This document shows positions 41,635 to 54,848 of a stretch of 64,000 nt of DNA, piece by piece (position 1 is the first letter of the stretch; each line of letters begins with the position of its first letter). The notes under the pieces were generated by a model. It did not search any database. It was not told the origin of the DNA and saw only the letters and a program-made list of their open reading frames with translations. Position numbers and translations under genes: made by a program. Source of the DNA: Arenibacter amylolyticus (GTDB lineage: Bacteria > Bacteroidota > Bacteroidia > Flavobacteriales > Flavobacteriaceae); NCBI RefSeq assembly GCF_002150785.1, contig NZ_MTAZ01000034.1, forward strand, positions 1-64,000, given 5' to 3'.

Positions 41635-41708
41635 CGGGATGTGGCGCAGCCCGGTAGCGTACACGCCTGGGGGGCGTGGGGTCGCAGGTTCAAATCCTGT
41701 CATCCCGA
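41635..41708 (+). tRNA. tRNA-Pro (anticodon GGG)
   Basis: 74-nt cloverleaf. Acceptor CGGGATG pairs with CATCCCG; the D arm is GCGC...GCGT; the anticodon stem CACGC/GCGTG encloses loop CTGGGGG with anticodon GGG; the T arm is GCAGG-TTCAAAT-CCTGT; the discriminator base is A. No CCA is encoded; CTT follows. The last 12 bases of the gene are part of the attachment core of the island that follows, so the present 3' end was restored by integration. Confidence 0.96.
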
Positions 41709-41709
41709 C
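41697..41709. other. attL core of the tRNA-Pro island
   Basis: CTGTCATCCCGAC at the tRNA 3' end, repeated exactly at 54836-54848. The tRNA-end position, an integrase fragment directly downstream and cargo in between fit a tyrosine-recombinase attachment site. Confidence 0.8.
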
Positions 41710-41734
41710 TTTACATTTTCATGTAATTGCATTG

Positions 41735-41764
41735 AGCTGTTAATCGACTGATTAACAGCTTTTT
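41735..41764 (+). terminator. terminator supplied by the island
   Basis: Perfect 11-bp stem (41735-41745, AGCTGTTAATC; 41750-41760), loop GACT, then TTTT. It now terminates the tRNA-Pro transcript, 26 bp past the tRNA end. Confidence 0.85.
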
Positions 41765-41790
41765 GCGTTTTTAGGGGTATCATAAGAAAT

Positions 41791-41820
41791 CACATGAAAT
41801 CACATGAAACCACCTGAAAA
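41791..41820. repeat. three 10-bp iterons inside attL
   Basis: Tandem CACATGAAAT, CACATGAAAC, CACCTGAAAA, 82 bp inside the core site and just before the integrase remnant. Short direct repeats at this place are typical of arm-type integrase-binding sites. Confidence 0.5.
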
Positions 41821-41862
41821 CGACTTAAACGTGTTGAATACGGGATTTTTTATACCTCCTAA

Positions 41863-52170: not shown

Positions 52171-52925
52171 TTTTTGGGTTCCAATAATTCGCTTAAAACT
52201 TCCCTGGCCGATACAATTTTTGATCTGTCCACATTTTTTTCCAGGAGATCCACCAATTCAGATAATTGTTCTGGGGTGATTCCCTGTATCAAACAGATAT
52301 TTAGATGCGAACTAAGCATTGGTTCTACACCTCCAATAGTTGCCAGTACAGAAACCGTGACCAGTTCCCTTTGTTGGTAGTTCAAAATATCACGCTCAAA
52401 AATATCGGCAAACAAGTGTTCCTTTAAAAAGACTTCTATTATTGGGGCAAATTGTGCATAATCGGCCGGTGGCCCGTCTAATTTGTTTTGAACCAATTCT
52501 TCTAAAATAACCTTCCCCCTATCGTATTTCGGAATCGTATCCTCGATGAGACTAGCGTCCTTCCCTATAATATCCTTAATTCCATTAACCTTTCGTTCCT
52601 CCAATACTTTAATAAAAGTTCGCATACCGCGCAGGCTGCGTGGAAATCCACAATAGGCATACAGGTGTACCATTACCTCTTTTATTTCGTTAACGGTTAG
52701 GCCAGAATCCAAACCGTCGACCAAAGCGGTTTCTAATTTTTCCATATCCCCTTTTGCCGTTAGTGACGAAATGATGATAATCGATTTTTGCTTATTATCC
52801 AACATCTTTGTGGTACTGCCGGTTGCTTGTGCTTTCGAGCTGGCCGTAAAACCAAGAAGGAAAGTAGCAAGTGAAGCAAAAATCAATGTCTTCAGTTTTT
52901 TTATTACCCTATTATTAATCTCCAT
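52167..52925 (-). CDS. carboxymuconolactone decarboxylase-family protein, two CMD domains, exported
   Basis: 252 aa with a signal peptide (LIFASLATFLLGFTASSKA). First CMD domain about 45-125 (LTVNEIKEVMVHLYAYCGFPRS), second about 155-245 (QRELVTVSVLATIGGVEPMLSSHLNICL). The classical AhpD CxxC is absent, so peroxiredoxin-reductase activity is unlikely; a lactone- or small-molecule-handling role is more likely. First gene of the eight-gene island operon, divergent from the AraC gene. Confidence 0.87.
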   Translation of the reverse strand: MEINNRVIKKLKTLIFASLATFLLGFTASSKAQATGSTTKMLDNKQKSIIIISSLTAKGDMEKLETALVDGLDSGLTVNEIKEVMVHLYAYCGFPRSLRGMRTFIKVLEERKVNGIKDIIGKDASLIEDTIPKYDRGKVILEELVQNKLDGPPADYAQFAPIIEVFLKEHLFADIFERDILNYQQRELVTVSVLATIGGVEPMLSSHLNICLIQGITPEQLSELVDLLEKNVDRSKIVSAREVLSELLEPKK

Positions 52926-53097
52926 TATATCCTGTTTCTTTTTAGCGATCGGTCATTTTTTGATCAGTTGGCGAATAACATTCCCCTTAAGGTAAGTCTT
53001 TGAAGTGGCCTCCGAAATAATAATTCGTATCCTTTTGGCACTTCTCTGTATTTAACATTCAAAATTAACACTTCAAAAACCAAAAATACTTACCCAA

Positions 53098-53127
53098 ATT
53101 ACGGATAAACCTACCATTATTACGGAT
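53098..53127. promoter_or_regulatory. candidate AraC operator (direct repeat, 21-bp spacing)
   Basis: ATTACGGAT at 53098-53106 and again at 53119-53127, exactly 21 bp apart, in the 265-bp divergent region between the cargo operon and its AraC regulator. Two helical turns between identical half-sites is the AraC-family pattern. Confidence 0.55.
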
Positions 53128-53190
53128 TAGTGAAAAGCAATTTTAATTACTTATAATCAATGTCTTATCTTTAATAAAAAATTATTGAAA

Positions 53191-54102
53191 ATGGATAAAA
53201 TCTTGTACATCAAATCGGTTTCGGACTATTGTAAACTTCGAAACTGGGAGGTGCTGCATCCTTTGGTGGCCATTATCGATTTTGACAAGCTCAGCGAGGA
53301 AGGCTATACAAACAACCAATATGATGCTTTCCATTTTAAGTGCTATGCTATTTTCCTCAAGGATGTAAAAGGGTGTAAAATCCATTATGGGGGCAAACCC
53401 TACGACTATGACGAGGGTACCCTTGTTTTCATGGCTCCTAACCAGACCATCGAGTTAGGTGGTTTTGATCCAGATTACGTGCCAAAGGGCTATGCAATGC
53501 TATTTCACCCAGACTTGTTACTGGGTACAGAATTGGGAAAAAAAATGCATATATATAATTTTTTCGCCTATTCAAGTAACGAGGCACTCCATCTCTCGGC
53601 TAAAGAACGCAAGGTGATCTTAAGCTTATTGGAAAAAATACAGTTTGAACTGGAGCAGAACTTGGACAAGCACAGCAAAAAACTGATTGTGGCCAACATC
53701 GAGCTCTTTTTGGACTATTGCACACGTTTCTATGACCGGCAATTCTTGACCCGCGAGATCGAAAACATAAGTTCCATGCAAGAGTTCGATCAATTTTTGA
53801 ACGACTATTTCACCTCCGATAAGCCACAAAAGCATGGTACTCCTACGGTAGGTTATTTCGCAGAGCGATTAAACCTATCTTCCAATTACTTTGGGGATCT
53901 GGTTAAAAAAGAGACAGGGAAATCTGCACAAGAGTACATTCAAAGCAAATTGATCGAGGTGGCAAAGGAAAGGGTTTTTGATCCGACCAAATCATTGAGT
54001 GAAATTGCTTTCGAGCTTGGTTTCAAATATCCACAGCATTTCACCAGATTGTTTAAACAACGTGTTGGACATTCACCTCGCGAGTTTAGGGATTTAAATT
54101 GA
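53191..54102 (+). CDS. AraC-family regulator of the island operon
   Basis: 303 aa from the ATG at 53191. N-terminal cupin-like sensor (about 40-135; LVFMAPNQTIELGG), a linker helix, and a C-terminal double helix-turn-helix (about 215-300; VGYFAERLNLSSNYFGDLVKKE, then SEIAFELGFKYPQHFTRLFK and GHSPREFR). Divergent from the CMD-led operon and thus its likely activator. The inducer would be a compound handled by that operon. Confidence 0.9.
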   Translation: MDKILYIKSVSDYCKLRNWEVLHPLVAIIDFDKLSEEGYTNNQYDAFHFKCYAIFLKDVKGCKIHYGGKPYDYDEGTLVFMAPNQTIELGGFDPDYVPKGYAMLFHPDLLLGTELGKKMHIYNFFAYSSNEALHLSAKERKVILSLLEKIQFELEQNLDKHSKKLIVANIELFLDYCTRFYDRQFLTREIENISSMQEFDQFLNDYFTSDKPQKHGTPTVGYFAERLNLSSNYFGDLVKKETGKSAQEYIQSKLIEVAKERVFDPTKSLSEIAFELGFKYPQHFTRLFKQRVGHSPREFRDLN

Positions 54103-54835
54103 TTAAGATCACGGCGATATTCGGTGTATTTACCAATATGCCTTTAAGCGGTCATTTTGTGAATCATCACAAAACCATCTCAATAACTGTCTGTTGTTCC
54201 ACCTCTCTTTTTAGAAGTTCCAGTAATTTTCCTTTAAGGGAAATAACAAAGTATATTTAAACGACCGTATGATCTACAATAATAAAAGTCAAGTACTTTT
54301 TTGATGCTCAGAATAAACATAGTTTATTTTTCCCGTATCTTTAATAAGTTTACACTCTTAACCTTTAAATGCCCATGATGGATTTTGACATGTTGGAGTA
54401 AATACAGAAGAACATAATTTACACCATCTGGTTAATATTCTCATTAGAAAGAATACAAAACTATACATATATAATTCGATAGGATTAAAGGGAATCGTTC
54501 AGAAAGATCTTGGCAATTTAAAGTCAGTATCCCAATCATTAAAAACACATGGTTTGGATCACTATAATTCTGCTCTTTAATATTCTATCTCCACCAAACA
54601 CCTAGTCTTTTCCTAGATTGTTTGTATCAAATTATTTTTCGGAGATGTTTTTTTAAAGGATGTAAAAAATGTTGCTTGTAAAATAATTTTCTTTGTAACT
54701 TAGAGGTAGTAAAAACGCATAGTATTTACTTTCATTTAGTTACATATTTGATTAACATGTCAATAGCGGGATTATACATTAAATAAACGTACGCAAAGTC
54801 CTGATTGTCAGTTGCTTGGATTTAGTTATTGGATG

Positions 54836-54848
54836 CTGTCATCCCGAC
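54836..54848. other. attR core of the tRNA-Pro island
   Basis: CTGTCATCCCGAC, identical to the tRNA-Pro end at 41697-41709. The bases directly after complete a CCA (CCCGACCA), as expected of the original uninterrupted tRNA gene. Confidence 0.8.

Follow-up and report, generated by a model that had tools for sequence, protein, structure and literature searches.

A 64,000-nucleotide stretch of the Arenibacter amylolyticus genome (the window; contig C31 of a 4.0-Mb assembly, G000 in our genome set) carries a genomic island at positions 41697 to 54848, beside a tRNA-Pro(GGG) gene. We conclude with considerable confidence that this island is a former integrative and mobilizable element (IME), inserted by a tRNA-Pro-specific tyrosine integrase and since decayed to a state near that of a cis-mobilizable element (CIME). 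The observations behind this reading are att repeats, a relative whose site is empty, sister elements that share both ends, gene disruptions, and recurrence of the cargo elsewhere. The vehicle is of a known, ordinary kind; the new interest lies in an operon that changes vehicles.

Insertion at tRNA-Pro

The integration target is an intact tRNA-Pro(GGG) gene on the forward strand (41635 to 41709), placed by ARAGORN, matched by the Rfam tRNA family, and found in all 18 Arenibacter genomes compared. Its 3' end constitutes the left att core, CTGTCATCCCGAC (attL, 41697 to 41709, forward strand), and an exact second copy of this 13-mer, the right core (attR, 54836 to 54848, forward strand), lies 13,139 bp downstream, as an earlier note on this DNA had reported. 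Base composition predicts about 0.0008 exact copies, and no further copy with two or fewer mismatches occurs in the 64-kb window. The right end of the element (54652 to 54863, forward strand) is conserved, with 79 to 83% identity in G004, G008, and contig C22 of G001, and the sequence at 54854 to 55029 (forward strand) is located right of the right core in G003, G007, and G016.

An empty site is provided by the congener G005, in which tRNA-Pro is directly joined to sequence resembling 54854 to 54928 (82.7% over 75 bp), with no integrase of the tRNA-Pro family within 1.5 kb of the tRNA; the 37 kb fetched contains no further core. This supplies the empty-site comparison that the earlier note had proposed and, together with sister elements sharing the same two ends, bears out its claim of an integrated island delimited by att repeats. 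On contig C45 of G001, the sequence found beyond the right core in G004 and G008 directly abuts the tRNA; because an xis-like gene sits downstream, we call this site free of a window-type element rather than empty. The left flanks of G001, G004, and G008 are syntenic with the window. The same note named two results that would contradict it, an empty-site relative with 41.7 to 54.8 kb in synteny or a 13-mer shared by all genomes irrespective of the island. Neither was seen: all 18 genomes have the 13-mer at the tRNA, but in the stretches fetched a second copy was found only with an element.

Occupation of this site is widespread within the genus. An integrase of the family, or a piece of one, lies within 250 bp of tRNA-Pro(GGG) in 16 of the 18 genomes, starting 144 to 246 bp away, and is broken or partial in G000, G014, and G009. 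A second core is present downstream at 8 of the 16 occupied sites, with one mismatch in G008, and was not seen at the other 8 in the stretches fetched (6 to 37 kb beyond the tRNA). Another left-end sequence follows a core in G011, G002, and G007, indicative of tandem accretion. On contig C32 of G001 (L047, 9652 to 9696), a sister element is preceded by a truncated tRNA-Pro that lacks the 5' half and retains 45 bp of the 3' side, and on C22 (L103, 5399) a core-bearing right end leads into the sequence found after the tRNA on C45; these features read as a second, displaced att region. A repeated unit with a spacing of ~90 to 120 bp is found downstream of tRNA-Pro in several genomes (window, 54854 to 55029; G005, G003, and G016).

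The association of core and integrase extends through the family. A single GTDB genome scan that used the G004 integrase as the query yielded 72 named loci, 46 of which have tRNA-Pro 128 to 324 bp upstream (24 GGG, 21 TGG, and 1 CGG). The core alone precedes another 17, one locus is at tRNA-Asp, and the 8 with neither tRNA-Pro nor core include the weakest integrase matches. As a control, the core is present in 1.2% of random 220-bp segments of the same loci. CTGTCATCCCGAC is the att core of an integrase family that adjoins tRNA-Pro.

GC content is 0.416 for the island, 0.440 for the cargo, 0.385 for the mobility module, and 0.390 for the remainder of the window. The GC enrichment noticed earlier by eye thus holds for the cargo, which exceeds all 137 cargo-sized sliding windows outside the island (maximum, 0.412), and not for the mobility module. 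An Rfam search of 41 to 56 kb returned, besides the tRNA, a CRISPR-DR22 match (23.9 bits against a gathering threshold of 50) that was taken as chance. Just right of the island lie lplA (55260 to 56267) and an mscS-type gene (56857 to 57684). Among relatives, lplA is found away from tRNA-Pro in G001, G004, and G008 and is present in 4 of the 18 Arenibacter genomes; the mscS region is likewise away from tRNA-Pro in G001 and G008.

A vehicle broken in the window and open in its sisters

The tyrosine integrase pseudogene (41863 to 43170, forward strand) aligns end to end with a 435-amino-acid (aa) sister protein (91%) but is interrupted near the N terminus by two premature in-frame stops, leaving open reading frames (ORFs) at 41863 to 42090 and 42226 to 43170. 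A deletion scar follows at 43513 to 43517 (no strand assigned), where the window lacks ~480 bp that in G004 include the greater part of a BfmA/BtgA-family mobilization gene. The DnaC-like helicase-loader gene (43785 to 44477, reverse strand), identified by PHROGs (phrog_50 and phrog_3277) and by tblastn with the sister protein, has one premature in-frame stop and an open ORF at 43785 to 44378. The module also encodes, on the reverse strand, an HTH_36 replication-initiator-like protein (44483 to 44950; Pfam and PHROGs) and an excisionase-like HTH_17 protein (44951 to 45241), whose sister weakly matches an excisionase/transcriptional-regulator PHROG (E 0.0006). These Pfam and PHROGs matches uphold the earlier inventory of an integrase remnant with Xis-, replication-, and DnaC-like genes, the xis-like Pfam match being under the curated cut-off. 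Near the right end, 54206 to 54410 (forward strand) contains what remains of a serine-resolvase gene, its upstream region and a broken start; the same region precedes 284-aa ORFs at L100, L101, and L102, and the L102 protein matches Pfam Resolvase (E 1.5e-41). The repeat at 54206 to 54400 was considered as a terminal repeat or RNA and rejected, being the upstream region of this resolvase gene. Of four stretches in which this upstream region is conserved, L100, L101, and L102 have the 284-aa serine resolvase gene and L099 has a 25-aa remnant of it; three of the four also contain tRNA-Leu(TAG) or tRNA-Arg(TCT) genes.

The same vehicle carries other cargo in related genomes. Integrase, xis-like, HTH_36, and DnaC-like genes are common to the window, to G004 and G008 at the same tRNA, and to contig C32 of G001 (G001:C32), with the DnaC-like gene degraded in G008; the right end is common to the window, G004, and G008. 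The sisters also hold a gene of 177 to 186 aa at the position of the window's deletion, whose G004 copy is a BfmA/BtgA-family mobilization protein (NF041200, E 1.9e-23), in keeping with the earlier term "mobilisable remnant." Their cargo comprises a heavy-metal set in G004 (MerT/HMA, ArsR, an RND transporter, and an outer-membrane efflux protein), CheB/CheR/PAS histidine kinase in G008, and a PAS histidine kinase in G001:C32. Among more distant tRNA-Pro elements, G011 has a MobP-type relaxase with MbpA and G006 has BfmA beside a MobB relaxase. A search of two relaxase families, PF03432 and MobB, gave no match inside the tRNA-Pro elements of G004, G008, and G001:C32; all 18 Arenibacter genomes hold PF03432 relaxases elsewhere.

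No relaxase or type IV secretion gene was named among the island ORFs scanned, in agreement with the earlier note. A helper may be present in the window's genome, which has three PF03432 relaxase-domain matches on other contigs (none on the window's own) and, at C6, a Bac_Flav TraG. G000 is the only one of the 18 genomes without a MobB-family relaxase match. A BfmA search of the window's genome found no match, a null that does not establish absence, as control genomes gave none either.

Compared with its sisters, the window differs at silent sites by 0.40 to 0.43 per site in the integrase, 0.33 to 0.48 in the DnaC-like gene, 0.37 to 0.43 in the xis-like gene, and 0.17 to 0.45 in the Rep-like gene. 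These values are lower than in flank genes (0.51 to 0.76), suggesting that the mobility module was probably passed between species after their split.

A cargo operon on several tRNA islands

The earlier description of a metabolic operon with its own regulator proved apt. An AraC-family regulator gene (53185 to 54102, forward strand) is divergent from a reverse-strand operon encoding a carboxymuconolactone-decarboxylase (CMD) family protein (52167 to 52925), a cupin (51652 to 52170), an esterase-like alpha/beta hydrolase (50498 to 51607; PDB 4q34, E 1.4e-110; esterase 1qlw, E 8e-29), a cupin fused to DUF4440 (49610 to 50467), a SnoaL-like DUF4440 protein (49142 to 49594), a flavodoxin (48541 to 49128), a [2Fe-2S] small subunit (47954 to 48421), and an aldehyde-dehydrogenase-like molybdenum-binding large subunit (45653 to 47944). 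The last was identified by Pfam and by PDB 8gy3_C, an aldehyde dehydrogenase large subunit of known structure (residues 20 to 755, E 1.8e-68). The cargo genes are all open, and amino-acid/silent change ratios are 0.04 to 0.19 in cargo comparisons without silent saturation, as expected for retained function. The start of the molybdenum subunit resembles a Tat/lipoprotein signal and several cargo proteins start like exported proteins (both judged by eye); the enzyme is probably exported. Our guess, less likely than not to be right, is that the cargo would oxidize an aldehyde outside the cytoplasm, perhaps one freed by the hydrolase. One review gives a CMD protein as induced by hypochlorous acid (PMC7464077), and a role of the cargo with reactive chlorine is no more than a lead. 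A defense-system reading of the cargo and replication genes was rejected, with 0 of 8 proteins matched in PADLOC. Within the open-licence literature, no published report of these elements or of the operon was identifiable.

The recurrence of this cargo on other tRNA islands was overlooked by the earlier note. A search for the CMD protein in the 18 Arenibacter genomes and 199 genomes of the family gave 17 strong copies, 4 in Arenibacter and 13 in 11 other genomes, leaving aside 5 weaker single-stretch Arenibacter matches (E ~1e-8 to 4e-4) and family matches above E 1e-40. Enclosure was read over 60 kb, incompletely on the short contigs of G001 (27.5 kb), G062 (31.9 kb), and G149 (42.5 kb). Eight of the 17 copies are bounded on one side by a tRNA gene and on the other by a direct repeat of that gene's 3' end farther downstream: the window (Pro-GGG, 13 bp), G001 (Arg-TCT, 45 bp), G004 (Leu-CAA, 28 bp), G005 (Arg-CCT, 24 bp), G158 (Pro-TGG, 16 bp), G112b and G189 (Pro-TGG, 17 bp each), and G063 (Leu-TAG, 52 bp). 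Six kinds of tRNA gene are thus involved, and the enclosed copies make up 4 of 4 in Arenibacter versus 4 of 13 in other genera. Among 18 control positions, taken from five of these genomes, none was enclosed; one control region has a repeat-bounded tRNA with the test point outside it. Fisher's test gives P values of 0.001 for 8 of 17, 0.002 with the window excluded, and 0.023 for other genera only, which are rough because the controls are round coordinates chosen by us and the copies are mutually related.

The islands themselves differ in content. Those of G001 and G004 carry relaxase ORFs of 761 to 767 aa and integrases at the far end, the G005 island at tRNA-Arg has an MbpA/MbpB-like pair and an integrase of the tRNA-Pro family (41 to 44%), and no recognizable mobility gene was found in the G158 island. 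The G063 island also holds molybdenum-cofactor genes (XdhC, MobA-like, ThiF, MoaE, MoaC, and MoeA). The cargo of G004 shares 90.3% identity over 5.1 kb with a copy in G112, a member of another genus, versus few matches of G004 flank DNA in G112 (67 to 74%, with two short exceptions of 33 and 48 bp at 90 to 91%); this copy, G112a, lacks enclosing tRNA repeats over the 60 kb read. We regard as evenly poised the proposal that the AraC-Mo-dehydrogenase-CMD-cupin operon is a recurrent Flavobacteriaceae cassette, repeatedly reloaded onto unrelated tRNA-specific elements, once together with molybdenum-cofactor genes of its own, and maintained by selection when the vehicle has died.

Origin and fate of the island

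Several observations weigh against a decayed IME with a traveling cargo. The right flank from 54.85 to 59.36 kb is not syntenic with G004 and, as synteny resumes only at ~59.36 kb, is itself variable. No relaxase was found in the sister IMEs, so that BfmA is the sole ground for taking the ancestor as an IME. The window's cargo is carried by none of the three sister elements, and 9 of the 13 cargo copies in other genera are not enclosed by tRNA repeats. Cargo silent divergence from copies elsewhere in Arenibacter is 0.65 to 0.83, with the exception of the cupin (0.38 in G001 and 0.56 in G005), and therefore the cargo was not recently shared with them. It is no closer to those copies than flank genes are, at silent sites that are mostly saturated, so these distances do not demonstrate a recent arrival.

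That last similarity would suit an old chromosomal operon in place, beside which the mobility module alone was inserted. We find this scarcely credible, since the operon is absent around tRNA-Pro in G001, G004, and G008, is found in only 4 of 18 Arenibacter genomes, and sits at other tRNA genes in the three besides the window's; in the window it lies between both cores, and no relative was seen that has the operon next to tRNA-Pro without an element. A satellite resembling phage-inducible chromosomal islands, with integrase, xis, Rep, a DnaC-like loader, and cargo carried in phage particles, would account for Rep- and DnaC-like proteins that match phage replication families and for sister elements in which no relaxase was found. 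It is nevertheless very unlikely: the sisters have a BfmA/BtgA-family mobilization gene, related tRNA-Pro elements have MobP- or MobB-type relaxases, DnaC and replisome organizers are reported in IMEs too (PMC5704250), and 0 of 8 proteins of the mobility module and its sister matched capsid or packaging PHROGs, so that the earlier note's "satellite," in the phage sense, is not supported.

A more plausible alternative, which we still hold to be the less probable account, is a class of elements without a relaxase (integrase, BfmA, HTH_36 Rep, DnaC, and xis) that borrow one from another element and are mobile as a group, the window being a dead member. That G004 and G001:C32 have this module, with degraded forms in G008 and the window, is consistent with such a class, as are the lack of PF03432 or MobB matches inside the three sister elements and the PF03432 relaxases elsewhere in every Arenibacter genome. 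However, the search covered those two families alone, and the G001:C32 element extends to a contig end. BfmA adjoins a MobB relaxase in G006, so the relaxase may simply have been lost from the group.

The island has some defining features of an IME and others of a CIME. As in an IME, direct-repeat att sites mark a specific target, which is unoccupied in a relative. Unlike an IME, the window copy lacks a working integrase, with its two stops, whereas full-length ORFs are present in G004, G008, and G001:C32; BfmA is mostly deleted, and no relaxase was named in the island. As in a CIME, both att sites are kept and integration and transfer genes are lost, through stops and deletion rather than the absence of every gene. 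We infer excision, replication, transfer, and enzyme activity. Integration would have proceeded by recombination of the 13-bp core at the tRNA 3' end with the same core on a circular element. Within intact sisters, the xis-like protein and integrase would excise the circle, the Rep/DnaC-like pair would support its replication, and BfmA would work with a relaxase and conjugation pore from another element. Because BfmA is mostly lost and the integrase and DnaC-like genes have stops, the window copy could be moved only by an integrase in trans or a neighbor in cis. Its cargo, an operon under AraC control, has been retained during vehicle decay and in relatives is found on other tRNA-integrated vehicles.

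Tycheposons have been described in marine cyanobacteria and are likewise tRNA integrated, with a tyrosine recombinase, replication-type genes, and ecological cargo and without a transfer pore. Bacteroidetes IMEs named in the review include NBU1, NBU2, Tn4399, and Tn4555 (PMC5704250). They are similar in being integrase bounded and without their own transfer pore, with mobilization genes in the window's intact relatives, and tRNA-Pro relatives, G011 among them, encode MbpA- and MbpB-like proteins. According to the review, the few Bacteroidetes IMEs then known were canonical, with their own relaxase, whereas we found none in the window or in the three sisters closest to it. Its account of CIMEs is matched by the kept att sites, the lost or broken integration and transfer genes, and tandem accretion in G011, G002, and G007, but the window's Rep- and xis-like genes are still open and no active tandem neighbor was found in the window. 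BtgA/BtgB mobilization of pBFTM10 (PMC10865816) has a parallel in the BfmA/BtgA-family protein of the sister elements; however, a BtgB counterpart was not identified in the sisters, and BfmA is mostly deleted in the window.

Overall, tRNA-Pro serves as a busy point of entry in Arenibacter, used in 16 of 18 genomes, and the integrase family tracks tRNA-Pro across Flavobacteriaceae. The island gives a dated picture of island death with cargo survival, in which the vehicle is open in sister species and broken here and the site is empty in a congener. An operon moving among marine bacteria on different vehicles suggests a strong but patchy benefit.

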